NCBI RefSeq assembly: GCF_021389935.1
Contig: NZ_CP089979.1
Span: forward strand, 3,081,001 to 3,145,000
DNA: 64,000 nucleotides
Direction: 5' to 3'
From: Fulvivirga ligni
GTDB lineage: Bacteria; Bacteroidota; Bacteroidia; Cytophagales; Cyclobacteriaceae
Part shown: positions 4,336-52,079 of the stretch, piece after piece
How the letters are laid out: each line of letters starts with the position of its first letter
Numbering within the stretch: the first letter of the stretch is position 1
Position numbers and translations under genes: made by a program
The notes under the pieces: generated by a model
Database searches by the model: none
Seen by the model: only the letters and a program-made list of their open reading frames with translations
Told to the model about the DNA's origin: nothing

Positions 4336-4339
4336 AAGA

Positions 4340-4371
4340 GATTGCTCCAGAGGCGAACCCCTGAAGCAATC
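4340..4371 (-). terminator. Candidate terminator hairpin between pyrB and the GH87 gene
   Basis: GATTGCT and AGCAATC form an outer stem, continued by a GC-rich inner stem with two mismatches and a GCGAAC apical loop. Read on the minus strand the hairpin is followed by CTCTTTTAATT, so it more probably ends the GH87 transcript; it may also block read-through from pyrB. Confidence 0.55.
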
Positions 4372-4386
4372 CTCCTAACTTAAACC

Positions 4387-7300
4387 CTACTTAATAGAGA
4401 TTTTTGAATGCATGATACTATCTCCTGAAATTACTTTCAGTAGATAGATTCCTGCCGTCATATTATCTGTGTCCACCTGAGTGTGACTTCCCGTTAAGGC
4501 ACCTTCTTTTACTGATGTGCCTGATAGGTTATAGATTACAAATGATGCATCATCACGGATATCACTATCTACGGCTATGGTAAACTCATTTTCTGCCGGA
4601 TTAGGATATACATTGAAAGCCTCAGAAAGCATGCTATCTGATGAGCCAACTCTGGCTGATATGCTTACAGGTTCCAATACCCACTGAGCGCTTTCCCACT
4701 GAGGATAGATAGTGCCATGTTGAGCATTTCCTTGAAGGTTCTCTACATTAATGTATTGATTACCCTGCCATACATTTCTGATTCTTACAAATCCGCCACC
4801 TGCGTCTTCCATAGCCCATCTTGAGCTCTGCCATCCGAAAGTTCTTGGCGTACATTGCACCTGTCCTGTCAGATTCTCAATATGCATGTAATGACCTGTA
4901 GCCACATTTCTGATTTCCTGACCGTTATTTACATCTTCAAGCACCCATAGATAAGAATCACCAGATGAAGAATTAGTGTACTGTACTCTATCACCACCAT
5001 CTCTCAGGTAAGTGTTCTGCCATCTGTTCTTAATTCTATAGGCAGTAGAGCCGGTGTTGTCAGGAGTTACAGTAATAGTTACATCATCAGTGCTGCTTAG
5101 AGAACCATCGCTCACCGTTAACCTGAATACATAGCTGTTTCCGCTGGCCAGGCCATTCACGGAAGTGCTTGCTGCGTTAGCATTGCTGATAGATACAGAA
5201 GGTCCATTGATTTGGCTCCAGCTGTAAGTTAAGCTGTTGCCATCAGGGTCAGTACCTGAACCAGATAAATTCGCACTTCCTGTACCGGCAGGTAGATTTT
5301 GATCATTTCCTGCATTAGCAGTAGGAGCCTGGTTCGTATTGCCTTGCTGCACTGTGATAGAAACATCATCGCTGCTGCTCAATACTCCGTCACTCACGGT
5401 TAGACTGAATACATAAGTGTTGCCGTTTGATAAACCGGAAGCGGAAGCATTTGCTGCCTGAGCATTATTTAAGGTAGCCGCAGGACCACTAATCTGACTC
5501 CAGCTGAAAGAAACATTATCTCCGTCAGGGTCTGTTCCAGAACCACTTAAGTTGGCTGTGGTTGTTCCTGAAGATAATGATTGATCGCTGCCAGCATTAG
5601 CCGTAGGAGCCTGATTAGATGGATTACCATCAATTCTCACTTCAAAATCACCATTGTTGTTGAAGAAAGCGATGTCTTCACCCGCAATGTTGGTGAAAGT
5701 GGTGTTTGACAATTCCATCCATCCGTCAAAGGTATTAGTAGGAGAGAAGTTCGCTACATAAATTCCATGACCTCCTGATTCTCCTGAGCCTGTGGTGTAC
5801 TGAGGTCCGTTGTTTACATCTAGGGCAACTCCGGTTCCATCAATATGTACATTGTTGAAAAAGATATTATCAATCACTCGGTCATTGTTAGAAGGCATGT
5901 AAGAGTGTACAAAAACAGCATCATGCTGAGAGTTGATTACATCTATATTGGTAAAATTGGCATATTGAAGATCATAAGCCTGACCTTGTGTAGGTTCAGG
6001 TAGTTCCAGCTCAATGGCTCCAAATCTGTACGTCCAGATGTTCTTGGTGGTACCGCAACCAATAACGGTAACATCATGAATGTTTATGGCTTCAGAAGCA
6101 TTTGATCCAAACGGGTAAGCCGGGAACTGGGTGTTTAACCTAATACCAGGGCCGGCGAAGTTATCCTTAATGATCAGGTGATGTGCCTCATGGCTATGAC
6201 CACCGAAGAAGCCTAAACCAGCTGCTCTTAAGTTATTCTCAACAGTGTTATATCTGAAAATATTACCATAACTAGGAGTTGGAGGTACAGCTTCAAGATA
6301 ATTTACTGACCATGTCGCCATGGCATCATCAATACAGTTTCTAAAACTGGTATGCTCTACCACAGTGTTACGGGTTCCTTTGGCCAGATTCACACCATCG
6401 GCATATACGTTTCTGATTCGGCAGTTACTGATGACCAATCCATCAGTCACATTCCATCCTCCAGACTGCATGGAAGATATCCAGAAGCCTGTTTCAAAGT
6501 GCTCAGCCCAGACATTTGTAATGGTAGAACCAGATCCTACACTTCCGTTCACTGCTTTGTTACCAGGTATACGAGAGTTGGTAGCACTGTTCATATAGAA
6601 GTCTTGAAGGTGGATGTTATTCGCATCGAACAAGAATCCTGCACCATTTTGCGAGGTGCTGCTGAAGTATATTTCAGTATGCCACATACCAGCTCCCTGG
6701 ATGGTTAGACCATCGTTAGGGACCCACATGTTACCAGAAGGAGAACCGTTTCCTTGACCATTAATAAATCTACCTGCTGGAATATAAATACCTTGAATGC
6801 TAGGATCACCATTGGCTAAATCAAGACACGTTCTAAAGGCTGCCGCATCATTGGTTTCATCATTTGGTGTGGCTCCATAGTCCATAATATTAAGATATCC
6901 GGCTGGTTGACTGATTGGTGCGGGCACATTTTCAAGTTCAATGAAGTCGATGCCATAAGCGCCGCCACCACCATCTTTCTGCAATCTGATCACATCTCCT
7001 GAATTCAGAGCATTTGCTAGTACCACGTGCACTTCATCAAACCTCATTCTTGGCTCAGGGTTTGATCCTTGAGGAGTATTTGACGGGGTTCCTGTAGTAG
7101 ATGGGCTGATATCAAAATATTGCCATGCCCAGTATGAGCTTAAGCTAATATCTCTTACCTTACTTCCATTTACATAAACGCCCATAGTTCCGGTGCTATT
7201 GTCTGATAATGAGAATCTTAAGTTAAGTCCATTAAGGCCTGAGCTAGAAACAGTCCACTCTACATAGCTGCCATTTGAAGGTAAGCTTACAAACTTTCTG

Positions 7301-10300
7301 TCGCTGGCTTCTGAGGCTAGCTGTGCCATATCATAAGTAGGTCCTTGTACAGAAGCACCATTACCAAGTGTGGCATTTTCTGACTCATAGCGAGTATAAG
7401 GAGCATCATAGTCACCACGGTCAGTTGGGTAAACTGGCTCTGAGCTCACTGTAAGCAGTACTTCATCACTAGCGGATGCGTTGTTATTATCCGTGGCTGT
7501 TAACCTGAATACATAACTACCTTCTACAAGATTGGAAGCGTTCAATACTGCTGTGTTTTGTCCGGTTAAGCTGGCGTTTGAAGGGCCGCTCACCTGTGTC
7601 CATGCGTAAGAACTGATGGTGCCATCACTGTCAGTGGCAGATCCGCTCAAAGTGGCGCTGTTGGTAGGTAGCTGAATGCTTAGGTTATTACCGGCATTTA
7701 CCACCGGTGGCTGATTAGAGCCAATGCTTATAGCTACCACATCTGTGGCAGTGGTTCCGTTGCTACTCACCGCTAGTTGGAAAGTGTAGCTATTGCCATC
7801 ACTTAGACCACTAACGGTTGTATTTACAGCATTAGCATTTGCAATACTTACCGAAGGACCATTTACCTGAGTCCATGCATAGCTTAAAGTGCCAGGACCA
7901 GAGCTTCCTGCACCTGATAAATTAGCTGAGGTTGTACCTTTTGGAAGAGACTGATCTGTTCCGGCGTTGGCCACCACTACATCACCACACGTGGTTAAGT
8001 AAACAGTACCAAACAAACTAGGGTTTGACCAGGCCATCTCAGAGGTAGAGAAGGCTGCGATCTGCGCATCTCTGGCGCCACCGCCATCATCGTCATCAAT
8101 TTGCACATCTATACCAATTTGGTTACCGATGGCTGGTGTTACGCCAATGGTAGACCATGGAATAGAAACTTCCATAGCATATCCATTACCGGTACTGTAC
8201 ATCGAGTGGTTAATGCCTGAAGCGTTTTGAACAGAGTTGCCACCCAGGTGAACAGTGCCATCATTCCAACGGAAACCTAACTGGAAGTCATTCTGCCCGT
8301 CATAACTGGAACCTTTGCTGTTATCGCCATCAATGAAGATGTTCATAACGTCGTCATTCCACCATTCACCACCAGAATCATTGTTAAGTGAATTGTCAGT
8401 AGACTGGACTAATAGATACAGGTTATTGTTGTCGTAAAGTGCTTTATAGCTTCCGCTGAAATCTCCAGGCATGCCGCCCAAAGTCACATTTGAAATGTTC
8501 ACAGCACCTACATTATTCCAAACAGCATCTACATTTTGATCGATGGTTGGAGGCGTACTGGTAAGTCCAATATTCGGAGCAGAACAAGGTGCATTATCAT
8601 TATCGGTAATGGAAATGGATGCGGATGTACTTCCTCCTAACTGATACCCAGAACCAGATTGAAGCGTAAGGGTAAGTGTTTCAGTATCTTCAAAGTCAGA
8701 ATCATCTAAAGGGGTTATAATAATGATTCTGGATGTATTTGAAGGTGTTAAAGTAATCGATCCACTTAGTGAAGGATTGGCCGAATAATCTGATGGTGAG
8801 GCTGTTCCACTGACAGAATAGTTCACCGTTACATTCTGGCTGGTTTCTGAAATACTGATGGTAAACTGTCCTGTGTCACCGTTTTCGTCTGCTTGATCGT
8901 CATTAGCCACAATGTTTACTGCAGAAACTACCGTTACCGTAATCTGTGCGGTATGTCCACCATCAGCAGAGGTTACAGTTAAAGTCGCTGTACCTGTGCC
9001 ATGCGCTACCACCTTACTTTCTACCTCATCATAAGTGGCTACTGAGGCATTAGAAGAGCTCCATGATACGGCCTTGTTAGTGGCGTTGGTAGGGCTATAA
9101 ATAACCGATAGCGAAGCACTTTGTCCCGCAGCTAGATTAAGGTTGTTTTCCGAAAGTGAAATACCTGTTAGTGGTACATTGATATTTTGTAGTATCAGAT
9201 TAAAATTTTGGTTAGCCTGGAAAATTGGAGGATCCCTTTCAATATTTTCCATACTGAGGTTATTGAAAACTGCTGTTCCCGAACCTCCAAAGGTAAGAAT
9301 AGCGGCTCCTTCTGAGGCTACTGTGTATAAGGATGCCGTGTAAGGATCTAAACCAGTGCCATTGACACTTATATTGTCAAAATGAAGGTCAGAGCCATTT
9401 CCACCAATTTGTATACCATGGCGCTGAGCATCAATTACATTGATATTTTCAAAATAAACACCTCTCACAGCTCCACCTGTAGAATTAACTTCGATAGCAC
9501 CACGATGGAAGTTCCAAAGGTCATTACTGGTTCCGCAGGCTATGATAGTGTTTTCATAAAAGCGAATCTGATTTGTATTGTCAAAGTGATATCCTGGGAA
9601 ATCAGTAGTAAGCCTAATACCTGATCCTGCCATGTTATCTTTGATAATACAATGGTGTACTTCATGACCATCACCACCAAAAATGGCAGCTCCACCGGCT
9701 CTGTATGTGTGCTCTACAGTGTTGTATCTGAAGATGTTGTTCACTGCCATAGGTGCTCCAAAGTCACTATTTGGCCACACAGCCATGGCGTCATCACCAT
9801 TACTTCGGAAGTTGTTCTGAGCCACAATAGTGTTAGAAGTTCCCTGACATAAATTGATTCCGTCAGCATAGTTATTCCTGATCCTGTTGTTGGAAAAGTT
9901 CAGATTCTGAGTGATATCAATAGGGTAGGGAGGATCATATCCTGCTATCCAGGCACCACACTCAAAGTGAGTAACCCATACATCATGGATGCTGGAATTA
10001 TTACCATAAGTTCCCATGAAGCCTTTGTAAGTAACATATTGGCCGTTAAGGAAACGCTGATTGTTAACCGTGTTTAGGTAGAAATGTGAGAACTCTACAT
10101 TTGAGCAACGAGCCAAAATACCTCCGCTAAATACAGCTTCAGTGGAAAAATAAAGTTCCGTGTGCCACATGCCAGCACCAGTTACGCCGATATTGTTTTC
10201 ATTTACGATCAACTTCTGACTAAGCATAAAGCGGCCTTGAGGAATGTAAACCCCTGTACCTGCATTCTGCGCAGCTGTTAAAGCAGACTGGAAAGCAGCT

Positions 10301-11007
10301 AAATCATCAGTTCCATCATTAGGAGTAGCTCCATAATCGGTTACAGAGACATAACCAGAAGGCTTTTGACGTGGCGCGGCTACATTTTCAATTTCAACGA
10401 AATCCACTCCATATTCAAATCCATCTCCATTGTTTTTCTGGATACGTAGCACGTCTCCTGGAGATAGTGGATTGTTAAGTAAGAAATGAACTTCATCAAA
10501 TCTCATTCTAGGCCTGTTTCCCGGATGATCTTCAGGTTCTGAGCCAGGGAAATATTGCCAGGCCCAGTAAGAAGTGAGGTTTACAGTCTGTGATAATGAT
10601 CCGTTTACGTAAACATCTAACGAACCATTGTTTCCTTCACCGCCCGGTGCATCCGGCATGGTGAATCGCATAGTTACACCATTGGCGTTTTGGTTTACGG
10701 TCCATTCTACGTAAGCTCCGTTATTAGGTAAGCCTACATACTTTTGATCAGAGGCTTCTGCTGCAATCTGATCTTGCAGAAAAGTGGGGTTTTGATAGTA
10801 ATTAGCTCCACCACCTCTACTTCCAGCTTCCGATTCATACCTTACATAAGGCATTTGAAAAGCGCCTCGTGGTAAGCCGTCGCTTTGCGCGAATGATAGT
10901 AAAGGGCTGAAAATCAGGGATAATAGCAGAATGTTGAGTATGCCTGGTGGTGAAAAAGTAAAAAGGTCTCCCCAGACCCTTTTGCAGGGTAGTTTTAGTT
11001 TTTCCAT
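4387..11007 (-). CDS. Giant secreted enzyme with two tandem GH87-type alpha-1,3-glucanase modules, T9SS type A
   Basis: A 2206-residue secreted protein (an ATG at 11052 exists, but the start at 11007 gives a clean signal peptide ending LLSFAQ). Visible order: CBM-like beta-sandwich ~50-215 (YVRYESE); first beta-helix ~222-610 starting VTDYGATPNDGTDD; Ig-like Big_2 ~612-693; Calx-beta ~697-803; CBM9-like ~806-1006; two PKD-like ~1009-1190; second beta-sandwich ~1196-1366; second beta-helix ~1368-1790; two more PKD-like ~1800-1983; ricin-type beta-trefoil ~1986-2113; T9SS type A sorting domain at the end. Both helices carry D-x22-D-D (D382/D405/D406 and D1537/D1560/D1561), the spacing of the catalytic aspartates that I recall for GH87 alpha-1,3-glucanases. 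The enzyme should be displayed on the cell surface and cut alpha-1,3-glucan or nigeran for the SusCD pair encoded just upstream. GH87 assignment rests on motif and architecture, not a search. Confidence 0.85.
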   Translation of the reverse strand: MEKLKLPCKRVWGDLFTFSPPGILNILLLSLIFSPLLSFAQSDGLPRGAFQMPYVRYESEAGSRGGGANYYQNPTFLQDQIAAEASDQKYVGLPNNGAYVEWTVNQNANGVTMRFTMPDAPGGEGNNGSLDVYVNGSLSQTVNLTSYWAWQYFPGSEPEDHPGNRPRMRFDEVHFLLNNPLSPGDVLRIQKNNGDGFEYGVDFVEIENVAAPRQKPSGYVSVTDYGATPNDGTDDLAAFQSALTAAQNAGTGVYIPQGRFMLSQKLIVNENNIGVTGAGMWHTELYFSTEAVFSGGILARCSNVEFSHFYLNTVNNQRFLNGQYVTYKGFMGTYGNNSSIHDVWVTHFECGAWIAGYDPPYPIDITQNLNFSNNRIRNNYADGINLCQGTSNTIVAQNNFRSNGDDAMAVWPNSDFGAPMAVNNIFRYNTVEHTYRAGGAAIFGGDGHEVHHCIIKDNMAGSGIRLTTDFPGYHFDNTNQIRFYENTIIACGTSNDLWNFHRGAIEVNSTGGAVRGVYFENINVIDAQRHGIQIGGNGSDLHFDNISVNGTGLDPYTASLYTVASEGAAILTFGGSGTAVFNNLSMENIERDPPIFQANQNFNLILQNINVPLTGISLSENNLNLAAGQSASLSVIYSPTNATNKAVSWSSSNASVATYDEVESKVVAHGTGTATLTVTSADGGHTAQITVTVVSAVNIVANDDQADENGDTGQFTISISETSQNVTVNYSVSGTASPSDYSANPSLSGSITLTPSNTSRIIIITPLDDSDFEDTETLTLTLQSGSGYQLGGSTSASISITDNDNAPCSAPNIGLTSTPPTIDQNVDAVWNNVGAVNISNVTLGGMPGDFSGSYKALYDNNNLYLLVQSTDNSLNNDSGGEWWNDDVMNIFIDGDNSKGSSYDGQNDFQLGFRWNDGTVHLGGNSVQNASGINHSMYSTGNGYAMEVSIPWSTIGVTPAIGNQIGIDVQIDDDDGGGARDAQIAAFSTSEMAWSNPSLFGTVYLTTCGDVVVANAGTDQSLPKGTTSANLSGAGSSGPGTLSYAWTQVNGPSVSIANANAVNTTVSGLSDGNSYTFQLAVSSNGTTATDVVAISIGSNQPPVVNAGNNLSIQLPTNSATLSGSATDSDGTISSYAWTQVSGPSNASLTGQNTAVLNASNLVEGSYVFRLTATDNNNASASDEVLLTVSSEPVYPTDRGDYDAPYTRYESENATLGNGASVQGPTYDMAQLASEASDRKFVSLPSNGSYVEWTVSSSGLNGLNLRFSLSDNSTGTMGVYVNGSKVRDISLSSYWAWQYFDISPSTTGTPSNTPQGSNPEPRMRFDEVHVVLANALNSGDVIRLQKDGGGGAYGIDFIELENVPAPISQPAGYLNIMDYGATPNDETNDAAAFRTCLDLANGDPSIQGIYIPAGRFINGQGNGSPSGNMWVPNDGLTIQGAGMWHTEIYFSSTSQNGAGFLFDANNIHLQDFYMNSATNSRIPGNKAVNGSVGSGSTITNVWAEHFETGFWISSMQSGGWNVTDGLVISNCRIRNVYADGVNLAKGTRNTVVEHTSFRNCIDDAMATWSVNYLEAVPPTPSYGNIFRYNTVENNLRAAGLGFFGGHSHEAHHLIIKDNFAGPGIRLNTQFPAYPFGSNASEAINIHDVTVIGCGTTKNIWTYRFGAIELELPEPTQGQAYDLQYANFTNIDVINSQHDAVFVHSYMPSNNDRVIDNIFFNNVHIDGTGVALDVNNGPQYTTGSGESGGHGIYVANFSPTNTFDGWMELSNTTFTNIAGEDIAFFNNNGDFEVRIDGNPSNQAPTANAGSDQSLSSGTTTANLSGSGTDPDGDNVSFSWSQISGPAATLNNAQAANASASGLSNGNTYVFSLTVSDGVLSSSDDVSITVQQGNTNQAPTANAGNDQNLPAGTGSANLSGSGTDPDGNSLTYSWSQINGPSVSISNANAASTSVNGLASGNSYVFRLTVSDGSLSSTDDVTITVTPDNTGSTAYRIKNRWQNTYLRDGGDRVQYTNSSSGDSYLWVLEDVNNGQEIRNVATGHYMHIENLTGQVQCTPRTFGWQSSRWAMEDAGGGFVRIRNVWQGNQYINVENLQGNAQHGTIYPQWESAQWVLEPVSISARVGSSDSMLSEAFNVYPNPAENEFTIAVDSDIRDDASFVIYNLSGTSVKEGALTGSHTQVDTDNMTAGIYLLKVISGDSIMHSKISIK

Positions 11008-11146
11008 GAGTAATAGGTTTAATGAACAAATTGATAAAAGCCAACTCATCAACTTGGGTGGTACAGTAGTGTCTCTAAATTTTGAGCATATTTATCCTTC
11101 CAATTAATGAGAATATTAAAAGTTAAAGCTCAGACAAGAAGTAAGA

Positions 11147-11174
11147 TCTGCCTGAAAGCGTTAATTCAGGCAGA
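11147..11174 (-). terminator. Perfect hairpin between susD and the GH87 gene
   Basis: TCTGCCTGAA and TTCAGGCAGA form a perfect 10-bp stem with an 8-nt loop in the gap between the susD stop and the GH87 start. It has no adjacent T run on the minus strand, so it may be a processing or attenuation element that lowers enzyme expression relative to susCD, not a full terminator. Confidence 0.5.
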
Positions 11175-11185
11175 CCTTTGTGGTA

Positions 11186-12730
11186 TTATTTAGCCATAGT
11201 GGCTGCGTCGAAATATTGCTGCAATTTTGGGTTTAGCGATATCTCTTGTTGTGGTATTGGGAATGTCCAGTTAGCAGGATCATTAGGATCACCTAAAGGC
11301 ATGATGTCATTGGCATCTTTAAGGTTGCTGGCATTAGCCACGCCTAACATTTCTCTTCGCTGTAAATCCCAGAATCTTGGACCTTCACCAGCTAGCTCTA
11401 GCATTCTTTCATTCAGAACGGCGTCTATGAATTCAGCTTTGCCCAAGCCAGGAGTTAGATCCGCAACTCCAGCTCGTGATCTCACCATGTTTACGGCATC
11501 ATAGGCAGCGGCTCCAGGTCCATTTACTTCAGCTTCCGCCTCAGCGTATAAGAGAAGCAAATCGGCATATCTGAAAACCATCAGATTTCTAAACATCACG
11601 TTTTGATCTCCTACTTTTTGTGCAATGGAAGTCCATTTTTTATAAGTAGGTTTTTTATAACGAGAGTTTTCGAATGAAACCACATTACCATTGTTATCGG
11701 CACTAGGCCATTCTGTAAGGAATGTGATTTCCTTTCTAGGGTCAGTGTCAGGATATCTATTGTAAAATCCTATCTCTGCATTATGATCTTGCCAGCCAGG
11801 AGCATTATCTCCTGTTGATAAATCTTCAGGGAACATTCCTTGGGCTAGCATTGGCCCTAATGAGGATACCCCAGATTCAACTTCTGCCGCGGAGAACATG
11901 AATTCAAAGATTGATTCGCCATTGGCATCATACATCTCGTTGTTATTCCAAAGCGCTGCAAAGTCATCAGTATCTTCGTCACCATCAGCGTCTACATCCA
12001 GGCTGAACGGACCATTTACGATTTCCTGAGCATATTGTCTGGCTAACTCATATTTGCTGTTATCCTTTACTGGCCAGCCAGCCCAGGATATATACAAATA
12101 AGTTAGGCCGGCCTTACCAGCCCATGTAGTTGGTCTACCGATATCCGCCCCATAATTATCTCTAGAGTGCTCTACTACATATTGAAAATCTTCTTCAATG
12201 AGTTTGTAAATATCTACTGTAGAAGCTCTTAAGTCACTTCCGTCGGTTTGAGGGGTGGTAATTAATGGCACAGAACCAAAATTTCTGGCTAATACCAGGT
12301 AAGCATAACCTCTTAAGAATCTCATCTGTGCTGTTTTCTCCATGAGCATTTCAGGGCTCACTTCAGCATCAGCAGATTCGGCCAGGAAGGTATTCACGTT
12401 GTAAATAGCATGCCAATACTCACGCCATGTTTTCTTATAGAAAGCATCAGCTTCGTCAGTAGGTGCATTGAAGGCATCTACATTAATTCTGAAGGTTTTC
12501 CCTGTTCGGGTAGATAGATCATCACCCATCAGAAACTGATAGAAGTAGTGATTCATCATGGTGTGATAAGTGAAATCTTTATAAGCACCACTAATGGCAG
12601 CATCCAGATCTTCTTCGGTTTCGTAGAAGTAGGCTGTAACCATGTCATACTCAGGCTCATAGTCCATGTCGCATGATGTAGTGGTGATTGTTAGTGCTGT
12701 AAGAAGGTATATATATATCTTTTTCATCAT
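11186..12730 (-). CDS. SusD/RagB-family glycan-binding lipoprotein
   Basis: A 514-residue surface lipoprotein: the N-terminus MMKKIYIYLLTALTITTTSC has a lipobox-like TTSC with the lipidated Cys at residue 20. The segment RFLRGYAYLVLARNFGSVPLI around residue 137 is the SusD family signature (TPR-like helices), and the C-terminal MFRNLMVFRYADLLLLYAEA with ELAGEGPRFWDLQR is equally typical. SusD lids the SusC transporter and captures oligosaccharides at the cell surface. It starts nine bases after the susC stop, so the two are one transcriptional unit. From context the ligand should be alpha-1,3-gluco-oligosaccharide, which is inference from the GH87 gene downstream. Confidence 0.95.
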   Translation of the reverse strand: MMKKIYIYLLTALTITTTSCDMDYEPEYDMVTAYFYETEEDLDAAISGAYKDFTYHTMMNHYFYQFLMGDDLSTRTGKTFRINVDAFNAPTDEADAFYKKTWREYWHAIYNVNTFLAESADAEVSPEMLMEKTAQMRFLRGYAYLVLARNFGSVPLITTPQTDGSDLRASTVDIYKLIEEDFQYVVEHSRDNYGADIGRPTTWAGKAGLTYLYISWAGWPVKDNSKYELARQYAQEIVNGPFSLDVDADGDEDTDDFAALWNNNEMYDANGESIFEFMFSAAEVESGVSSLGPMLAQGMFPEDLSTGDNAPGWQDHNAEIGFYNRYPDTDPRKEITFLTEWPSADNNGNVVSFENSRYKKPTYKKWTSIAQKVGDQNVMFRNLMVFRYADLLLLYAEAEAEVNGPGAAAYDAVNMVRSRAGVADLTPGLGKAEFIDAVLNERMLELAGEGPRFWDLQRREMLGVANASNLKDANDIMPLGDPNDPANWTFPIPQQEISLNPKLQQYFDAATMAK

Positions 12731-12739
12731 TCATCCATT

Positions 12740-15700
12740 TTAAAATGTAGCAACTAAACCGAAGATAAACGCCTTAGGCAGTGGTACTAGGCCGGTGGCG
12801 TGAATGCCCTGATCAATATCGCTAGGATTTGAAGGGTTAATCTGAGAAGAGATCTCAGGATCGTAGCCTTTAAAGCCAGTAAGCGTCACCAGATTGTTGG
12901 CTGATACATAAAATCTCAGTTGTGAGATCCTGGCCTTAGAGATGATGCCTTCTGGAATAGTGTATCCTAATGTGATATCTTTAATTCTTGTAAAGCTGGC
13001 ATCTTCAACATATTGGCTGGATAAAAGCTTGTTAGCATTGGCTGAAGTAGCTGTATAACCTGAGGTGGTATTGCTTGGGTTGGTCTCTGTCCAGCGGTCA
13101 AGAATGGATCTGTCTACTGGTTGTAATGTTTCAGGGAACCATCCTTGTCTTATGCCTTTTGAAAGATTATAGATCTGACCACCCACTTTACCATAGATAA
13201 CTATGTTTAAATCGAAGTTTTTGTAAGTCAATCCTCCTGTCAAGCCCCAGGTGAAATCAGGGTTAGCCGAGCCAATAATCGTTTTGTCATTGGCATCTAT
13301 ACCATTCTGCCCATCAATATCTACATAACGAGGATCTCCTGGGTTTAACCCGTACTGAGCAGCCTCATCAGCTTCGTCTGACTGATAGATTCCATCAAAT
13401 TGATAGCCATAGAACTGACCTAGAGGCTTACCAACTTCCAGGATAGTGGCTACACCACCACCAGAACCAGGGTAGAACTCACTGCCCAAAGACAGGCTTC
13501 TTTCTACGGGTATAAGGTTGCCATTTTCATCTACAATAGATCCCAGGTCTAATACCTTATTTCTGTTGACAGATATGTTTCCATTAACATTCCAGCTAAG
13601 TGCATGTGATGCATCACTTCTTACACCCAGGGCAATTTCAAAACCTTCATTTTGAATAGAACCAATGTTATCAGTGATATTAGCTACGCCCGCGTAGGAG
13701 GGAAGCTGTCTGGTAAGAATGAGGTCTTCTGATTTTTTGCGATAGTAATCAATACTAGCCGTAAATCTGCTGTTGAAGAATTCTGCATCTAAGCCAATAT
13801 CGAACTGCTTGTTAGATTCCCAGGTTAAACCATTGGCCCCGGCAGTAAGTGTAGGTACAAATCCTCTGATAGGTACACCATTCGAAATAGGATAGCTGTA
13901 GCTGGTTTCTGGCCAATCGGCTTTTACATCACCCCAGCCTGGGAATTCACTATAAAATGTAGTGTATAGCTGATTGGGATTACCCACGTTTTGATTACCT
14001 GTAACACCATATGAAGCCCTTAGTTTTAAGAAGTCCAGGCTCTGAACTGATTGCAGAAAGCTTTCTTCTGAAATAACCCACGAAGCACCGATAGAAGGGA
14101 AGAATCCCCATCGGTCTGACGGAGCAAAATTAGAAGAACCATCATATCTGCCAGTAGCAGTAAGGCTGTACTTGTTTTTGAATGAATAATTCATCCTAAA
14201 CATAAAGGAAGTAATCATTTCTTCCCATCCACCAGGGGTTGCGGTGATGCTTTTCGCGTATTTAAGACCATTCTCTTGCAATTTCTCTGAGATTAAGTCA
14301 GATCCGTTGGTATTTAAAGTCTCGATTTTGAGCTTCTGATATTCCTGAACGGCATCTACCTTCAGGCGATGATCATCATTAAGAGATAAGTCATAAGTTA
14401 GCTGATTAGTAATGTTGAATCTCGTATTTTGCCCATCAAACCATCTTATTGCTATTGATCCAGGCAGAATGCTTGGTGTAAAAGTCTTATTCTGACCGTT
14501 GTATAACTCGGTTCCTCCGGTTGTTCTCCAGGTAAGATTCTCAAGTAAGTTCACCTCAAAATAGGCGTTAGCGAATATTTTTCTCTGATCCGCAGTATAA
14601 ACAGTCTTGTCTGCAATGATTAGCTCATTGGGGTTGATGTTCCCAACACTTTTTGGACTACCTAGGCTGGTATTTAATGACTCCTGATAGGTAGTAGTAG
14701 GGTCAAATGTTAATGCATTATCCATTTGAACCAATGTGCCGTCTACCAGCTCTCTGTTGATAGAGATATTAGTACCAATTTTAACCGCATCGCTCATTTG
14801 TGAAGCTACATTGGCTCTCAGGCCATAGCGATCATAAGTTCTGTTTTTTACTACACCCTCTTTATCCAGGTAATTAGCGGATACAAAATAAGTAGTTTTA
14901 GAGGATCCTCCGCTCACTGATAAGTTAAAGTTCTTATTCCAAACATCATGGTTAAGCGCATCGTCTTGCCAGTCAGTACCACCGCCGTTTCTTAAAGCTT
15001 GTATTTCAGCATCAGAATAGATTGCGTTGGCACCCAGAGCCTGGTTTTTGGTGTTAGCCTGCTCTGCAAATTCTGATGGAGAAAGCAAATCCACTGTACG
15101 GCCGGGGTTAGTTACACTGTAAAATCCTCTGAAATTGATGTTGAAGCTATCTTCTTTCCCTTTTTTAGTGGTAATGAGTATAACACCATTGGCACCACGA
15201 GATCCATAAATGGCTGTGGCAGAGGCGTCTTTAAGAATCTCCATAGATTCAATGTCGTTAGGGTTAAGCACATTGATATCTCCGATCACCACACCATCCA
15301 AAACATAGAGAGGGCCATTGGAGAAGTTTATGGAGTTGTTACCTCTTATTCTTATTTTCATGCCAGCAGCAGGATCTCCTGTAGTTTGGGTAAGCTCTAA
15401 ACCAGGAGTTCTACCTTGAAGTGCATTATCCACATTTGTAACAGGTAAGTTTTCATAACTTTCGCTGCTTACAGAGACGATTGAGCCAGAAATATCACTC
15501 TTTTCCTGTGATCCGTAACCTACAATTACTACTTCATTCAGGCTTGTGATGTCGGCCTCAAGCGTGATGTCAATGCGTGCCCTACCAACGATAGACACTT
15601 CCTTTGAGGAGTATCCAACATAGGATATGACCAATGTCTCTGCATCATCCGGCACGTTGATGCTAAAATCTCCCATGGCATCTGTTACCGCACCAATGGA

Positions 15701-16177
15701 TGTGCCTTTCAGCATAATAGTGGCTCCAGGAAGTCCTTCACCAGCTTCATCTTTTACTGATCCGGTAATAGTTCTTTCAGGTTGAAGGCTCACAGTCACT
15801 TTTTCGGCCTCCTTCTTCAATCCTTTTTTTACACTTATGCTTTTATTGACCTGCCTAAACTCCAAATTGGTTTGCTTGGCAATTTCAAGCAGAATATCTC
15901 CGACACTTTGCGTAGAGGTGGAGAGCTTCACCTTGGTGTGATTGTCAATTTCTTTAGAATAGAAAAAGCTATAATAGGTCTGACCTTCAATGTCAGAAAA
16001 TATTTCTTTTATAGTAGCATCTGTAACGTTTAGCTTTATACTTACCTCCTGTACGCTCTTTACTTGAGCAGTAGTACCCTCAGCTAACACGGAGGATAGC
16101 GTGAGGTAGATAAGGGAAAGGCTATACAGAAAATATTTTGTTACCATTATAATGGTCTGTAAAATTTGATATTTCAT
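12740..16177 (-). CDS. SusC/RagA TonB-dependent transporter with STN signalling domain
   Basis: A 1145-residue outer-membrane transporter. A signal sequence (ATG at 16177 or 16147) is followed by a secretin/TonB short N-terminal (STN) domain at ~44-118, a carboxypeptidase-regulatory-like domain at ~136-222 (TITGSVKDEAGEGLPGATI), the plug at ~228-350 (VVIVGYGSQEKSDISGSI, then DASATAIYGSRGANGVILITT) and a 22-strand-type barrel ending in the aromatic residue of LVATF. The STN domain is known to contact FecR-type anti-sigma factors, matching the FecR/ECF pair encoded immediately upstream. It imports oligosaccharides together with SusD, and sensing of transported substrate is inferred to release the sigma factor. 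Confidence 0.95.
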   Translation of the reverse strand: MKYQILQTIIMVTKYFLYSLSLIYLTLSSVLAEGTTAQVKSVQEVSIKLNVTDATIKEIFSDIEGQTYYSFFYSKEIDNHTKVKLSTSTQSVGDILLEIAKQTNLEFRQVNKSISVKKGLKKEAEKVTVSLQPERTITGSVKDEAGEGLPGATIMLKGTSIGAVTDAMGDFSINVPDDAETLVISYVGYSSKEVSIVGRARIDITLEADITSLNEVVIVGYGSQEKSDISGSIVSVSSESYENLPVTNVDNALQGRTPGLELTQTTGDPAAGMKIRIRGNNSINFSNGPLYVLDGVVIGDINVLNPNDIESMEILKDASATAIYGSRGANGVILITTKKGKEDSFNINFRGFYSVTNPGRTVDLLSPSEFAEQANTKNQALGANAIYSDAEIQALRNGGGTDWQDDALNHDVWNKNFNLSVSGGSSKTTYFVSANYLDKEGVVKNRTYDRYGLRANVASQMSDAVKIGTNISINRELVDGTLVQMDNALTFDPTTTYQESLNTSLGSPKSVGNINPNELIIADKTVYTADQRKIFANAYFEVNLLENLTWRTTGGTELYNGQNKTFTPSILPGSIAIRWFDGQNTRFNITNQLTYDLSLNDDHRLKVDAVQEYQKLKIETLNTNGSDLISEKLQENGLKYAKSITATPGGWEEMITSFMFRMNYSFKNKYSLTATGRYDGSSNFAPSDRWGFFPSIGASWVISEESFLQSVQSLDFLKLRASYGVTGNQNVGNPNQLYTTFYSEFPGWGDVKADWPETSYSYPISNGVPIRGFVPTLTAGANGLTWESNKQFDIGLDAEFFNSRFTASIDYYRKKSEDLILTRQLPSYAGVANITDNIGSIQNEGFEIALGVRSDASHALSWNVNGNISVNRNKVLDLGSIVDENGNLIPVERSLSLGSEFYPGSGGGVATILEVGKPLGQFYGYQFDGIYQSDEADEAAQYGLNPGDPRYVDIDGQNGIDANDKTIIGSANPDFTWGLTGGLTYKNFDLNIVIYGKVGGQIYNLSKGIRQGWFPETLQPVDRSILDRWTETNPSNTTSGYTATSANANKLLSSQYVEDASFTRIKDITLGYTIPEGIISKARISQLRFYVSANNLVTLTGFKGYDPEISSQINPSNPSDIDQGIHATGLVPLPKAFIFGLVATF

Positions 16178-16209
16178 ATATTTATAGTTGAGTAAAACAT
16201 ATATACTGG

Positions 16210-16242
16210 GGCATTATACAGGTGGCGGCCTGGGAAAATGCC
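16210..16242 (-). promoter_or_regulatory. Second hairpin in the susC leader
   Basis: GGCATT/AATGCC and CAGG/CCTG stack into a stem with a small internal loop and a six-base apex (TGGCGG). It lies 33-65 bases ahead of the susC ATG, inside its probable 5' untranslated region, so it could influence susC translation or be the lower part of a composite structure with the neighbouring hairpin. Confidence 0.4.
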
Positions 16243-16257
16243 TTTAAAATTATGTTC

Positions 16258-16284
16258 ACCGGGGGCCTTGCTCCCGGTTTTTTG
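16258..16284. terminator. Strong hairpin between fecR and susC
   Basis: ACCGGGGGC pairs with GCTCCCGGT around a three-base loop (nine pairs, one G-U). A T run follows it on the plus strand; on the minus strand, where the genes lie, the following sequence is only AT-rich (GAACATAATTTT). It probably weakens or separates transcription of the sigma/anti-sigma unit from the susCD-GH87 unit, allowing susC to have its own promoter. Confidence 0.5.
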
Positions 16285-16322
16285 TTTATAAGAGGGTTTT
16301 AAGTAATCATGTTAAGCCAGTT

Positions 16323-17375
16323 TTAAGGGTTAAAGTGTATGTTAACTACATTGTTATCTATAGTGTAAGTAAAGTCTAAGGAGAAGCCGATGCTATGTAA
16401 AACATTGCTGAGATACTCATTTTTGAACCTCCCGGAGCATATCAGCTCTCTGTCAGGCATATTTTCCACCTGAATATCTACATCATACCACCTCTCCAGT
16501 GTATGTATAACTTTCTTAAAATCAGTATCCTTGAAATACAGTATTCCATCTTTCCATAGAATGGCCTCAGGTTCATTAAATTTTGATTTCTCAAAGTGAT
16601 TGTCACTCTTCAGTTCTACCTGGAATCCGGGCTCAAGTAAAATTTTGCTGGCATTAGTGTTGTTTACTACTTCCACACTGCCATTGATCAATGTAACCTG
16701 AGTGGGAACATCTTCATAAGATCTTACATTAAAGGCTGTACCCAGCGCGGTAGTACTAATCTTACCCGACCTTACTGTAAAAGGGCGTGACTTATCATGA
16801 GCTACTTCAAAGAAAGCCTCTCCTGCTAGCTCTACTTCGCGGAAAGTTTTACCAAAATCTTTATTGTAGGCGATTGAACTTTCGGAGTTGAGGTTAACCA
16901 CAGTGCCATCTGGAAGGATAACTTTTGATTTTTGACCCTTTGGATTTTGCTTAGTAATAAATTGAATGGTGGAGGCAGGTGTTGGCTCATCATTTAAGTT
17001 GAAATATATTGCAGAGCCTGAAATTACGAGCAATACGATGACACTCGCCACCTTGAGTAAAGTAGTAGGACGTTTCTTAGTAGCCACATCTTCTTGTAGC
17101 GGTAATACTTTTTGTTGAGGTTTAGTAGAATCAATTTCATTGGAAATTCTATTCCATAACTGATTCTCTTGTTCAGTAGTGAATGGCGCCTCAGAAAAGC
17201 GAATGTTCTGAAGGATCAATTTGGCCTCTTTAATGGTCTCGGATTTTTCCGGATTCTGTAAAAGCCATTTTTCCCAAAAGAAATTCGTTTCAGGATCAGT
17301 GTTTAAAACCCATTTCCTGAAGCGCTCATCATGTATAAATTCTTCTGTAGTAAAGTCTTTGTAACTCATAACCAA
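16323..17375 (-). CDS. FecR-family anti-sigma factor
   Basis: A 350-residue inner-membrane protein with a cytoplasmic N-terminal region of about 105 residues, one transmembrane segment (VASVIVLLVISGSAIYF, ~109-126) and a periplasmic FecR domain with the hallmark segments KVILPDGTVVNLNSESSI, GEAFFEVAHDKSRPF and VLINGSVEVV-like strands, then a C-terminal DUF4974-type domain (YFKDTDFKKVIHTLERWYDV). It should hold the ECF sigma factor encoded upstream until the STN domain of SusC signals substrate. Translation may start at the second ATG (17369). It follows the sigma gene by 93 bases and precedes susC. Confidence 0.93.
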   Translation of the reverse strand: MVMSYKDFTTEEFIHDERFRKWVLNTDPETNFFWEKWLLQNPEKSETIKEAKLILQNIRFSEAPFTTEQENQLWNRISNEIDSTKPQQKVLPLQEDVATKKRPTTLLKVASVIVLLVISGSAIYFNLNDEPTPASTIQFITKQNPKGQKSKVILPDGTVVNLNSESSIAYNKDFGKTFREVELAGEAFFEVAHDKSRPFTVRSGKISTTALGTAFNVRSYEDVPTQVTLINGSVEVVNNTNASKILLEPGFQVELKSDNHFEKSKFNEPEAILWKDGILYFKDTDFKKVIHTLERWYDVDIQVENMPDRELICSGRFKNEYLSNVLHSIGFSLDFTYTIDNNVVNIHFNP

Positions 17376-17468
17376 TAGTTGGTAACGATTGCAGTTTTAA
17401 TAATAGAGACAGAGACTTATTTGATCTTATCAAAAAGAGGAGAAAAAATTAAAATAAATTTCAAAAAC

Positions 17469-18089
17469 TTAGCTGAAGCAGTAGAAAAGGCCAATTAAAA
17501 GAATAATATAAGGTAAAATTTCCTTCAAACTTTTGATCGACTTGGAGGTGAGTACATAAATAGAATCAACAGAAATTTCCATGATAGAGGCTATTTCTTC
17601 GTATTCAAGTCCTTGGAAAAATCGCAGATAAATGACTTCTCGCTGTCTTTTGGTGAGTTTTTTTAAAGCGTTTTGAACCCGCTTCTTGAGAGCAGCGTTT
17701 TCATTTTCATTTATGATCACATCTTCTCTGCTTTCACACTGGAATTCAAAGTTATGAAGTGATTCAGGGATTTTCTTTCTGGTATTGGTAATGACCCGAA
17801 AAAGACGCCTTCTAAATGAGGATATGAGGTAAAATCTGAGAGAGGAGGTTATTTCAATGTGATTTTTCTTGTTCCATAAATCCACAAATAGATCATGGAT
17901 ATTATCTTCCACCAAAAGCTTATCCTGAGATAGCTTCATCCCATATTGATATAGGATTTTTACATATTTCTTATAAATATCAGAGAAAGCCTTTCTATCT
18001 CCACTAGTTACTTTCTGCCATAGAAGTAACTCAGGAGAATCATTCTCCTTAGCGTTGGAAAGGTTGCTATGAGATAAGTATAGGTTCAC
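17469..18089 (-). CDS. ECF RNA polymerase sigma factor (PUL regulator)
   Basis: A 206-residue sigma-70 family protein of the extracytoplasmic-function class. Region 2 spans ~32-80 (AFSDIYKKYVKILYQYGMK, then VEDNIHDLFVDLWNKK) and region 4 spans ~136-190 (LTKRQREVIYLRFFQG, YEEIASIMEISVDSIY). The C-terminus ends in a short hydrophobic stretch, LPYIILLIGLFYCFS, seen in some Bacteroidota ECF factors, which might tether it to the membrane. As first gene of the sigma-FecR-SusC-SusD-GH87 series it is the expected activator of this locus. No canonical promoter was seen upstream of it. Confidence 0.93.
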   Translation of the reverse strand: MNLYLSHSNLSNAKENDSPELLLWQKVTSGDRKAFSDIYKKYVKILYQYGMKLSQDKLLVEDNIHDLFVDLWNKKNHIEITSSLRFYLISSFRRRLFRVITNTRKKIPESLHNFEFQCESREDVIINENENAALKKRVQNALKKLTKRQREVIYLRFFQGLEYEEIASIMEISVDSIYVLTSKSIKSLKEILPYIILLIGLFYCFS

Positions 18090-32932: not shown

Positions 32933-33316
32933 TTAGGCAAATGTAAAATATTGATTTATTATTCTATTAGAGAGAGGTTTTTCGATGTAAGCCACTACAT
33001 CTTCGAACATTCCAGCTCTATCTTTTTCCTTTTTACGGATAGAGGTGGTAAACATCATGATCTTTGAGGTTCCTTTGTATACACTGCTTTCATACCAGCT
33101 CAGAAACTCAAAACCATTCATCAGCGGCATGTTGATGTCTAAGAGTACATAGTCGGGTGATTCATTCGGATGTTTCTTGAAAAACTCTATTGCTTCCATG
33201 CCATTAGATACAGTCATTACCCTAACGTCACCGAAGCGAGCTTTAAGTGCTTGACTGGCAACATAATTACTCGTTTCGTCATCATCAATAATTAAAATGT
33301 TGCTTTTCTCCTTCAT
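32933..33316 (-). CDS. Single-domain response regulator
   Basis: A 127-residue stand-alone receiver. The acidic pocket DDD is at ~11-13 (ILIIDDDETSN), the phospho-acceptor lies in YVLLDINMPLMNG, the switch Thr/Ser in MMFTTSI and the conserved Lys in AYIEKPLS. It has no output domain, so it acts by protein contact or as a phosphorelay intermediate. A promoter-like TATTTTTG on the minus strand (33358-33365) and a 133-base gap separate it from the large kinase gene upstream, so it may be made independently, although it probably belongs to the same pathway. Confidence 0.93.
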   Translation of the reverse strand: MKEKSNILIIDDDETSNYVASQALKARFGDVRVMTVSNGMEAIEFFKKHPNESPDYVLLDINMPLMNGFEFLSWYESSVYKGTSKIMMFTTSIRKKEKDRAGMFEDVVAYIEKPLSNRIINQYFTFA

Positions 33317-33357
33317 ACGCTTTTTCCATTTGATTTTAGTATCATATATTAAGTAAG

Positions 33358-33365
33358 CAAAAATA
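33358..33365 (-). promoter_or_regulatory. Candidate -7 promoter element for the response regulator
   Basis: On the minus strand TATTTTTG fits TAnnTTTG and lies 42 bases ahead of the ATG at 33316. No -33 element was identified. Confidence 0.35.
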
Positions 33366-33449
33366 ACTGTATAATGCTATACCTTAATCTACGTATTTTT
33401 GAAAGAAAAGTGCTGTTTTATTAGTTAGAAGTATGATTTCATGTAAGTA

Positions 33450-36400
33450 TTAACGCTCTTTTAAATAAATTTGGAATGTCGTTCCTTTACCTTCTATACT
33501 AGAGACTTCAATTTTTCCTCCATATTTTTCAATGATTGACTTGGTGATGTGAAGGCCTATTCCTTTGCCTTCAATATCGAGGTGAAATCTTTGGAATAAC
33601 CCAAAGAGTTTATTGCCATAGTTTTCCAGATTAATACCACGACCATTATCCTGAATACTAATGCAACAGTAGCCAGCTTCCTTGCTACTAATGATATCTA
33701 TTTCGGGTTTCACCCCTAATTTTTTGTATTTGATGGCATTGGTAATCAGATTCTGCAAAATGTTATGCAAATGAACAGGAGGAAATAGGGCGGTGCTGCA
33801 TTGATCCAGGTTAATGTTAATATGGGCCTTGCTGCTTTTTATCTCTTCTTCTACATCTTCAAGAACATCATCTAGTAGCTTTTTCAGTTCTACCTTTTCC
33901 GATTTCAAGTCCAGATTTTTTTTAACCGCAATTACCTCATTAAGTGTAGAGATAGTTTTTTGCATCCTCTGAACTGCATTTTTTAGTTTAGAAAACACAT
34001 CATAACCATCTTTCTTCATAAAATCATTTTCCTCAATGATTTTCATTAAAGAATCCAGATTGGTAATGGGTGCTTTTAAGTCATGTGAAGCCAGGTAGGC
34101 AAACTGTTCAAGTTCTATATTGCTGCGCTCCAGCTCTTCCGCTTTGAGCATGAGTTGAGACTCTATTTTCTTTAATTGGTTAACATCTACAAATGTGAAT
34201 ACAACGCCTTTGATTTCTTTCTTTGATGTTACATAGGGTAATGCCTGCATCAAGAATACTTCATCTTTTTTAGTGACCACTTCTTTCTCTATAGCGGTGA
34301 AGTTTCTGAGTACTGATTGAGATATTTCAGATAAATTGAAATCTTTAAATTCATTGCTAAAATCACCAACGTATCTGCCTATATCGTTGCTGTTTAATTT
34401 GATTAAGCTAGTTATGGCATTAGTGAATCTCTTAATATTCAGATCGTTATCAAGGAAGAGGGTGGCGATGTGTGTACTTTGCAGGAAGTTTTTCAAGTCA
34501 TCATTGAGCTCTGTCATCTCAATGAGTTTATTTTCAAACTCATTATTCACCGTATATAACTCTTCATTAACACTTTGCAGCTCCTCATTACTACTTTGCA
34601 GCTCTTCATTGGCGGCCATTAATTCTTCATTGGTGGCTTGAAGTTCTTCGTTAGAGGTTTCCAGTTCTTCAATGGTGGATTGCAAATATTCTTTGGTTTC
34701 TTTTAGTTCTTCCTCAAGTCTTCTAATGTGAGCGTCCTTTTCCTTTGACTGGTCGGATTTTACACTTTTTGAATCACTGCTGGTGGAAATGGTAGTGGTG
34801 TGCTCTAACTCATTAAAGCTGACTATGATATATGAGTTTTTAGAATTTGGTTCGGTATAAGGTTTGGATACAATTTTAATGTATTTCTTTTCATCATTAT
34901 AGTTGTACTCAACTAATGGTGAGATGAATTTTTTCTTATGTGATTTTACTTTTGAGATGGCATTGCTAAGACTCACATAGATCTGCTCGTCTACCATTTT
35001 TAATACATTCAGTGTAAGTTGTTTACGAGGTAGTTTTATGTATTTGTCTACATCTCCGGCCACGTGAACGACATCCATACTCTCGTTTATAAAAACTGTG
35101 GCAGGAATCATGTCTTCCAAAAGAGCGTCTTTAAAGTTTGATACTATTTTGGTTTCATTCAGTAATCTGGGAGAGGTTTTCTTTATAGGCTCAAGAGTTG
35201 GTTTTTTACTCTTCTCAAAAGGATTAAGACGATGGACATCTATAATCCTTGTGGTCATACAGTTTTTATAGATTTTATACTTTTTGTTAACCTCTTCAAA
35301 AGCGTTTGATAACATTCCGGGAGTTTCGCTACTGCCCAGGAATAAGTAGCTGTTGGCATTGAGAGAGAAATGGATATAGGTTAAAATTTTCTCTTGCAGT
35401 GGTGGTTCAATGTAGATTAGTAGGTTTCTGCAGCAAGCAAGATCAATGTTATTAAATGGAGGATCTTTGGAAATATCATGTCTGGCAAAGATCACCATTT
35501 GTCGGAGCTCTTTTTTTACATGGTATGTTTCATTCACTTTTGTGAAGTATTTGAGTAACAGTGGTTTGGGTATTTCTTCTATCACTGTTTCTGCATATAT
35601 CCCTTTGCTGGCTCTATCTATGGCTCGCTGATCAATATCTGTGGCAAATATTTTTACGCTTGGCGATTTTCGCTGTTTCCTAAACTGCTCTTTCAAAAGC
35701 ATAGCAAGAGAGTAAACCTCCTGTCCGGTTGAGCAGCCTACTACCCAAATTCTGATGTCTTTGTCTACGGCATCTTTTACAAGCTGGTATAAAACCAGTT
35801 TATCCAAAGATTCAAAGGCTTTGGTGTCTCTGAAAAACCCTGTAACACCTATCAGAATGTCGTTACCAAGTAGATCGAGTTCATCAGGGTCATCTTTCAG
35901 GTAGCGCAGGTATAAATCCTTATTGAGTATATTTCTAATGCTCATACGGCGCTCTATGCGGCGTATTACAGTAGCTTTTTTGTACAATCTGAAGTCTAAC
36001 CTTGTTTTTTGATGTAGTAAGGTTAATATCTGATGTAAAATATCTCCTTTGTCTCCATCATCACCACTAAGATGTTTTAATTCCTTAATGTAGGGATGTT
36101 TTACGTACTTAATAATGGCATCTGGCATTCTGCTGGGGTGGAGAATAAAATCCACCAGGCCAGTGGCTATGGCACTTTTAGGCATGTTGTCAAAAGCTGC
36201 ACTGTTGGGGTCTTGGGCCATTACCATGCCGCCATTTTCCTTTACAGATTCTATTCCTAAAGTACCATCACTGCCGGTCCCGGAAAGTACTACTGCAATG
36301 GCTCGTTCTTTTTGATCTTCTGCCAGAGACTTTAGAAAGTTGTTAATAGGAAGGTTTAATGATTTTGGGTTGCCTCTGGCTTCAAGATAAAGCCTGCCTT

Positions 36401-36860: not shown

Positions 36861-36872
36861 TCGATTTTAAGA

Positions 36873-37475: not shown

Positions 37476-37477
37476 AA

Positions 37478-37915: not shown

Positions 37916-37918
37916 GGT

Positions 37919-40606: not shown

Positions 40607-40849
40607 TGATATAGGTTAAGTATAATTAATGCATGAAGTTAATGATTTTTTCTCATATATGCTTCTATTTCATTAAGGTGAAATGTGAAGGTGTATTTTT
40701 TATATGAATTGTCACATGAGTGGATTTTACCAATAAAATTTTATAATTTATATAAAGATATACTTAAGTGAAAGGGGTGGACACTTACTGTATTATACTT
40801 AGAATGGTTGCTTGTACTAGTTAATCGATTAAGCATCAATTAATTGCAT

Positions 40850-43263: not shown

Positions 43264-43379
43264 GAGTATACTCGTAGAGAATTTTAAGTAACATCACCCA
43301 TAATAATATACAACCAATTTGCGATTGTCGGAATATAGATAGAGGTCTACCTTTATATAAGATATAATGGAAATTGTCT

Positions 43380-51129: not shown

Positions 51130-51133
51130 AATT

Positions 51134-52057: not shown

Positions 52058-52068
52058 TGAAGATTAAA

Positions 52069-52076
52069 AAGGAGGT
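52069..52076 (+). promoter_or_regulatory. Strong Shine-Dalgarno site before the OmpA gene
   Basis: AAGGAGGT lies four bases from the ATG at 52080. Such a full match is unusual in Bacteroidota, where most mRNAs lack a Shine-Dalgarno sequence. Confidence 0.75.
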
Positions 52077-52079
52077 AAA

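Follow-up and report, generated by a model that had tools for sequence, protein, structure and literature searches.

A tandem, asymmetric GH87 enzyme in a probable Sus-type locus for alpha-1,3-glucan in Fulvivirga ligni

Gene content of the locus

We analysed a stretch of 64,000 nucleotides (hereafter the window; 3081001-3145000) from the genome of Fulvivirga ligni, a single contig of 6.52 Mb that has the same family code as the genomes of Reichenbachiella faecimaris (G187) and Marinoscillum pacificum (G194), and which harbors at window positions 4387-18089 a Sus-type locus with a protein containing two GH87 modules. Five intact open reading frames (ORFs) lie here on the minus strand, encoding an extracytoplasmic function (ECF) sigma factor, a FecR anti-sigma factor, a SusC-type transporter, a SusD-type protein and the GH87 enzyme, which ends in a sorting domain of the type IX secretion system (T9SS) (Table 1). 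These gene calls, made with Pfam and NCBIfam profiles, bear out a first-pass annotation of the bare sequence, which had placed the same five genes. By the same profiles, SusC and SusD are adjacent and are accompanied by a glycan-active enzyme gene, as in Sus-type loci. We scanned 37 of the 50 window ORFs of at least 100 amino acids against Pfam, the remaining 13 being short and overlapping other genes. Apart from the GH87 protein, none of the other 36 scanned ORFs matched a glycosidase at the thresholds used, in agreement with the earlier statement that the window holds no alpha-glucosidase. Neither an Rfam match at the gathering score nor a tRNA was found in the window, and no flanking repeats could be read as mobile-element ends among those listed (20 of at least 60 direct families and 25 of 71 inverted pairs). 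A scan for terminator-like sites returned 19 in the region, compared with 9.5 expected, including the hairpins on both sides of the GH87 gene.

From the N to the C terminus, the enzyme consists of a signal peptide, GH87 module 1 (the N slot), a Big_2 domain, a Calx-beta-like domain, a CBM9 domain, PKD domains, GH87 module 2 (the C slot), further PKD domains, a lectin-like domain and the T9SS tail. Translation likely starts at the ATG at 11007 rather than at the TTG at 11052, as judged from the signal peptide, which was read by eye. The tail is a type A sorting domain scoring 41.8 bits against the TIGR04183 cut-off of 23, as in T9SS cargo proteins, and the homologue of the lectin-like domain in a related locus (L015) matches RicinB_lectin_2 below the cut-off.

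Table 1. Features of the locus in window coordinates
Feature	Position	Strand	Evidence
ECF sigma factor	17469..18089	-	Sigma70_r4_2 6.1e-13; sigma70-ECF TIGR02937 3.8e-24
FecR anti-sigma factor	16323..17375	-	FecR 1.1e-18; FecR_C 6e-18
SusC-type TonB-dependent transporter, STN-like N terminus	12740..16177	-	SusC/RagA TIGR04056 1.2e-261; STN 25.3 bits
SusD-type glycan-binding protein (predicted)	11186..12730	-	SusD_RagB 1.8e-35; SusD-like_3 4.3e-15
14-pair hairpin, SusD/GH87 gap	11143..11178	-	scan and fold, -23.7 kcal/mol for 91 nt, z -4.97; listed as terminator-like, T-poor tail
Tandem GH87 protein, 2221 residues	4387..11052	-	intact ORF
Signal peptide (by eye)	10888..11007	-	hydrophobic stretch, end SFA-QS
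GH87 module 1, N slot, residues 62-623	9184..10869	-	CatAgl_D1/D2; 5zru 1e-165; model TM 0.96 to 5zru
Module 1 Asp 397	9862..9864	-	aligned with Agl-KA D1067; role from PMC6814745
Module 1 Asp pair 420/421	9790..9795	-	aligned with Agl-KA D1090/D1091
Big_2 Ig-like domain	8935..9168	-	6.2e-12
Calx-beta-like domain	8596..8895	-	22.5 bits, below cut-off 27
CBM9 carbohydrate-binding domain	7993..8544	-	6.7e-41
PKD domains ahead of module 2	7429..7977	-	K319L-like_PKD, four stretches in whole protein
GH87 module 2, C slot, residues 1205-1800	5653..7440	-	5zru 2.3e-109; model TM 0.86 to 5zru
Module 2 Asp 1552, counterpart of Asp 397	6397..6399	-	alignment
Module 2 Ile 1574, Gly in all but four modules read	6331..6333	-	alignment
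Module 2 Asp pair 1575/1576	6325..6330	-	alignment
PKD domains behind module 2	5044..5655	-	K319L-like_PKD (Pfam)
C-terminal lectin-like domain, probably beta-trefoil	4657..5043	-	matches C-terminal part of 1ups, 6e-8
T9SS C-terminal sorting domain	4393..4611	-	Por_Secre_tail 8.1e-13; TIGR04183 7.6e-11
15-pair terminator-like hairpin, directly 3' of GH87 gene	4339..4372	-	scan and fold

Both modules belong to GH87

The enzyme matches CatAgl_D1 (5.9e-93) and CatAgl_D2 (1.2e-38) in two stretches each, one set per module, so that the profile check proposed for the two helices turned out as predicted. The best match among PDB sequences is 5zru, the catalytic domain of Agl-KA, for module 1 (searched as residues 62-622) and module 2 alike. 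It is also the best fold match of the AlphaFold models of both modules, which have a mean confidence (pLDDT) of 89.7 and 87.9 and reach the template modelling (TM) scores of Table 1 when normalised by query length; in the fold alignments, modules 1 and 2 share 48% and 37% of their residues with Agl-KA, respectively. Both modules are thus GH87 by profile, sequence and predicted fold, and a different hydrolase or lyase family is excluded for either helix, since GH87 entries rank first by sequence as well as by fold. The two modules are 48% identical to each other in a two-row alignment. Mutation has shown D1067, D1090 and D1091 of Agl-KA to be essential, according to PMC6814745, and the corresponding aspartate trio is kept in both window modules, as in 96 of the 97 modules that we aligned; the sole module lacking the first aspartate is in L084. 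The enzyme is predicted to act on alpha-1,3-glucan, our best guess for its substrate.

Tandem enzymes and the two slots

Related loci were collected by scanning a collection of species genomes with both modules, written as two peptide patterns, which yielded 130 stretches, of which 85 were confirmed and the best 80 kept, giving 79 loci; owing to these patterns, the sample leans towards relatives of the window enzyme. Two-module proteins account for four of the 92 GH87 ORFs of the first set, which includes the window and leaves out the third GH87 gene of its genome (see below). They are found in the window, in R. faecimaris (L016), in M. pacificum (L014) and in L011; those of G103 and G572 were added later. 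The tandem of L011 (9881-16252, plus strand) carries two CBM9 domains and occurs in Teredinibacter, a gammaproteobacterium; its module 1 falls in the Bacteroidota N-slot clade, and its module 2, which has a long branch, groups with modules from Gram-positive bacteria or proteobacteria. GH87 genes are also found in runs: four are consecutive in a Bacteroidales metagenome-assembled genome (L050, 5555-16458, plus strand), and four lie within 17 kb in genome G499 of the order (L191, 1180-17934, minus strand).

In the last tree, built from 31 selected modules, one change separates the six N-slot from the six C-slot modules, a result matched with shuffled slot labels in 5 and 0 of 500 cases. The N-slot modules belong to one clade (93/86, not starred) that has single-module proteins within it, and the C-slot modules are spread over at least three lineages. 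The first tree comprised 31 modules; the last one dropped the long-branch L050_12406 and L067 and added the two G572 modules. All trees are unrooted, the long branches (module 2 of L011, and L012) are unsure, and the position of the Ile-type C-slot clade (see below) relative to the other clades is unsettled in the last tree. Approximately unbiased (AU) tests, whose groups were named after the first tree had been seen, rejected a single clade for the C-slot modules of the window, L014, L016 and G103 (p = 0.0019; 0.0039 on the second tree), as well as one for the N-slot modules of the same four proteins (p = 0.0004; 4.4e-5 with G572 added). A pair of adjacent genes in Flavobacterium sp. P3160 follows the same division: the first falls in the N-slot clade, and the second groups with the C-slot modules found in L014 and G572.

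The residue before the catalytic aspartate pair

The residue preceding the aspartate pair is glycine in 94 of the 97 modules, and the three exceptions are all C-slot modules, with isoleucine in the window and L016 and leucine in L014. The C-slot module of G103 also has isoleucine, and its N-slot module keeps the glycine, so that four of the six tandem C-slot modules are altered at this site. Glycine is retained in the modules of G189, G123, G210 and G161, in both of G572, in the C-slot module of L011 and in the other order-level modules with a readable motif, fragments lacking it being left out of the count; it is also read in the alignments of 5zru, 7c7d and 6k0m. Since the isoleucine and leucine modules do not form one clade by the AU tests above, the change probably arose twice.

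Such a substitution may have retuned cleavage, or it may have weakened catalysis; both are possible. Alternatively, module 2 may no longer be a normal catalyst and may serve for gripping glucan or for slow trimming of products, leaving the enzyme with one main working engine. The change itself and its probable double origin speak for this alternative, which we nevertheless rate as doubtful, since module 2 keeps all three catalytic aspartates, the three isoleucine modules are 79-81% identical to each other, which suggests constraint, and the C-slot modules of G572 and L011 have not lost the glycine. We keep to two modules that are most likely complementary rather than redundant, with the N slot most likely holding the catalyst of one clade and the C slot a module of another lineage that bears an altered residue beside the catalytic pair.

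Signs of module exchange

Module 1 of the window is 78% identical to a single-module enzyme in G123 and 73% to that of L009, compared with 46% to module 1 of L016; module 2, on the other hand, is 80% identical to that of L016 and 79% to that of G103. In L016, module 1 is 91% identical to that of L014 and 49% to that of G103. The Calx-CBM9 segment, module 2 and the lectin-like domain of L016, on the other hand, share 82-86% identity with those of G103, which has the same genus code. This patchwork suggests that modules have been exchanged between genes. Differential loss of old paralogues might leave a similar pattern, as the GH87 clades are old and diverse and the trees unrooted; however, this explanation is unlikely in view of these differing identities of module 1 and the other compared parts of the L016 protein, and a tree joining module 1 of L016 with that of G103 was rejected. 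We prefer exchange; the new part of the locus is its tandem, asymmetric enzyme, which bears signs of such swapping.

Related loci and the SusC/SusD cassette

Counted as presence in the fetched stretch rather than adjacency, SusC occurs in 44 of the 79 loci, SusD in 40, GH97 in 36, SusC together with GH97 in 35, ECF in four, FecR in three and a GH99-like gene in three. Because 35 of the loci are shorter than 19 kb, the numbers for SusC and GH97 are minimum values; few sequences went into the SusD model, and the three GH99-like loci are those that the GH99 model matched. Many of these loci are from Bacteroidales, with SusC and SusD on the strand opposite GH87. The order ECF-FecR-SusC-SusD ahead of GH87 is found in L010, L014, L067 and L111, with extra genes in some. 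GH18 adjoins GH87 in L009, as GH3 does in L110 and L112, neighbours that would fit a fungal-wall setting. Our first-pass annotation had thought GH87-centred loci rarely described in the phylum. Since SusC lies near GH87 in 44 of the 79 loci, and one predicted locus is in print (PMC13421300), the locus type is not noteworthy for being rare: it belongs to a known kind that genomes often carry but that has hardly been studied.

The locus had also been described as a complete degradation path, a claim that we withdraw, because many related loci carry GH97 and seven fetched near-kin loci carry a GH99/71-like gene that the window locus lacks. The latter gene occurs within the GH87 stretches fetched from R. 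faecimaris, M. pacificum, G103, G123, G189, G210 and G572, and in G161 it matches on a different contig from GH87. A search with the R. faecimaris protein matched 7 of the 9 GH87-bearing genomes of the family, missing the window's own genome and G166.

We compared the window cassette with 12 distinct SusC and nine SusD of GH87 loci, chosen by hand. Over long alignments, the window SusC shares 27-33% identity with 11 of the 12, and it has a short, weak match to that of L012; the window SusD is 23-38% identical to its counterparts, partly over short stretches. The window cassette thus has no close relative among those compared, and specificity cannot be transferred from them. By contrast, the SusC of L111 and L112 are 63-70% identical to that of L014. 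Among the matches listed to the window SusC (23 genomes, 31 candidates scored per genome), none is the SusC of a fetched GH87 locus. In G210, a SusC 35% identical to that of the window (G210:C5:1724400-1727651, minus strand) lies just past the fetched GH87 stretch, adjoining the SusC and GH97 of that locus. Joint inheritance of SusC and SusD with GH87 from the compared loci is excluded by the low identities.

We think it quite probable that the five genes form a Sus-type utilisation locus for alpha-1,3-glucan, from fungal cell walls or of the streptococcal mutan type. Several observations weigh against this. With ECF, FecR and SusC together in 3 of the 79 loci, the regulatory set is uncommon, and in R. 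faecimaris and G103, the nearest relatives by module 2, the gene before SusC has no match to the FecR model, which speaks against a conserved mode of control. The STN region of SusC (E-value 1.3e-5, 25.3 bits) falls below the Pfam cut-off of 28.4; of the self-regulation by substrate sensing suggested earlier, the ECF and FecR genes beside SusC stand, the STN domain is a sub-threshold match, and sensing is predicted from gene content. Neither GH97 nor a GH99-like gene was found among the 37 scanned ORFs of the window, which thus differs from the Prevotella-type combination of GH87, GH97 and GH99. In addition, the gap between SusD and GH87 measures 133 bases (to the TTG) and contains a strong hairpin, whose T-poor tail makes partial read-through possible. 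Finally, given the distant SusC and SusD, the pairing of the cassette with GH87 could be recent or loose.

The last two points also suit the alternative of a SusC/SusD/FecR/ECF cassette dedicated to another glycan, with the GH87 gene as a chance neighbour. We find this rather improbable, because cassette and GH87 share strand and order, SusC is near GH87 in more than half of the loci, and the same four-gene order precedes GH87 in four others. A substrate of the mycodextranase type, such as nigeran or another mixed alpha-glucan, is less probable still: GH87 covers mycodextranase as well as alpha-1,3-glucanase activities (PMC13421300), but both modules match alpha-1,3-glucanases best in a comparison set without a mycodextranase, so that of the two targets named at first, alpha-1,3-glucan remains the best guess and nigeran recedes.

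Genomic context and distribution

Outside the window, the genome has matches to five GH97, four full GH31 and one partial GH31. One GH97 (L118) is grouped with GH13, SusE, SusD and SusC and thus probably belongs to a starch locus; a second (L119), in whose 15.5-kb stretch no SusC or SusD is labelled, is 47% and 46% identical to the GH97 encoded in the GH87 loci of R. faecimaris and G103, respectively. These matches agree with the earlier suggestion that breakdown of imported oligosaccharides is encoded elsewhere, a role in the final step being predicted. No GH99 was found in this genome by profile, which was also silent in the controls, nor a GH99-like gene by the protein search described above. 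The third GH87 gene (L007, 9654-11402, minus strand) lies about 0.76 Mb away, near genes for a prolipoprotein diacylglyceryl transferase and a NamZ muramidase; it is divergent (highest identity 34% in the set) but keeps the catalytic trio, and no SusC or SusD is among its nine scanned neighbours.

Among 58 near relatives, CatAgl_D1 was found in one, namely the genome of the window itself; it is present in 9 of 390 family genomes and 7 of 390 order genomes, the own genome being counted each time. GH87 is absent from the 14 other genomes of the same genus, which excludes the locus as a genus trait; so far, this lineage is the only one of the genus in which it has been found. In the two genomes of the genus whose pyrB is most similar, of which 18 kb were fetched, DNA similarity to the window ends at 4335, the pyrB stop. 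The right-flank gene tested is separated from pyrB by 1.2 Mb in one of them and lies on a different contig in the other. The locus therefore starts at a synteny break. The GC content at 4-16 kb slightly exceeds the value for the right flank, which says little.

Elsewhere in the window, a 1278-residue ORF (60130-63966, minus strand) combines a TonB-receptor Plug domain with the alpha-2-macroglobulin domains A2M and TED, and a cluster of histidine kinases and response regulators at 32933-44885 includes a CheB-CheR-PAS-kinase hybrid. A 1990-residue repeat protein with a CHU_C tail is followed by PorP/SprF and OmpA-family genes (45084-54392, plus strand), presumably the usual look of a T9SS-linked surface-adhesin operon.

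Proposed function

Alpha-1,3-glucan is an insoluble component of fungal walls and dental biofilms. In the model that we favour, T9SS would place the large enzyme outside the cell, where CBM9 and the lectin-like domain would hold it to the insoluble glucan and the two GH87 modules would cut alpha-1,3 bonds through their aspartate trios. An inverting mechanism has been suggested for GH87 by analogy with GH28 and GH49 (PMC6814745). SusD and SusC would then bind nigero-oligosaccharides and take them up, a signal would be relayed to transcription by the STN region, FecR and ECF, and GH97 or GH31 alpha-glucosidases encoded elsewhere would finish the degradation. More tentatively, and with somewhat more doubt than confidence, we picture the enzyme as a two-slot machine, in which the N slot is filled from one clade and the C slot from several lineages, catalysts are swapped within a conserved scaffold, the C slot has twice been retuned at the glycine, and labour is divided into cutting and holding, or into endo-cutting and product trimming.

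Comparison with known systems

Agl-KA of Bacillus circulans (5zru) and AglFH1 of Paenibacillus glycanilyticus (6k0m) are like the window modules in family, fold and catalytic trio; we take both to have one catalytic module per protein, without T9SS and without a Sus-type locus. Agl-EK14 of Flavobacterium sp. EK-14, which is active on alpha-1,3-glucan of fungal walls, resembles the window enzyme as a Bacteroidota GH87 with Ig-like domains, a ricin B-like domain and a C-terminal secretion domain, but it has 980 residues and one catalytic domain, and the domain list in the accessible part of PMC10696023 contains no CBM9. The predicted locus of Prevotella melaninogenica likewise has GH87 in a Sus-type setting, and its GH97 and GH99-like partners recur in relatives of the window locus (PMC13421300). 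The window locus differs from it by the tandem GH87, the T9SS tail and ECF/FecR, and by having neither partner. To the knowledge of the authors of PMC13421300, no GH87-containing locus has been experimentally characterised. We found no published report of a tandem GH87 protein in the literature searched, which omits most subscription papers.

The closest systems are the tandems of R. faecimaris and M. pacificum. The former locus carries GH99-like and GH97 genes and the latter a GH99-like and a SusE/F-like gene, in contrast to the window locus, which has neither GH99-like nor GH97. As in the window, two GH87 modules surround CBM9 and PKD/Ig domains and are followed by a lectin-like domain and a T9SS tail (0.4 bits under the Pfam cut-off in M. 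pacificum), with SusC and SusD as neighbours; the three enzymes differ in how their catalytic modules are paired. The locus and its relatives form a natural series of pairings for asking whether two GH87 catalysts in one chain cooperate, and they single out one precise residue, glycine replaced by isoleucine or leucine, beside the catalytic pair.

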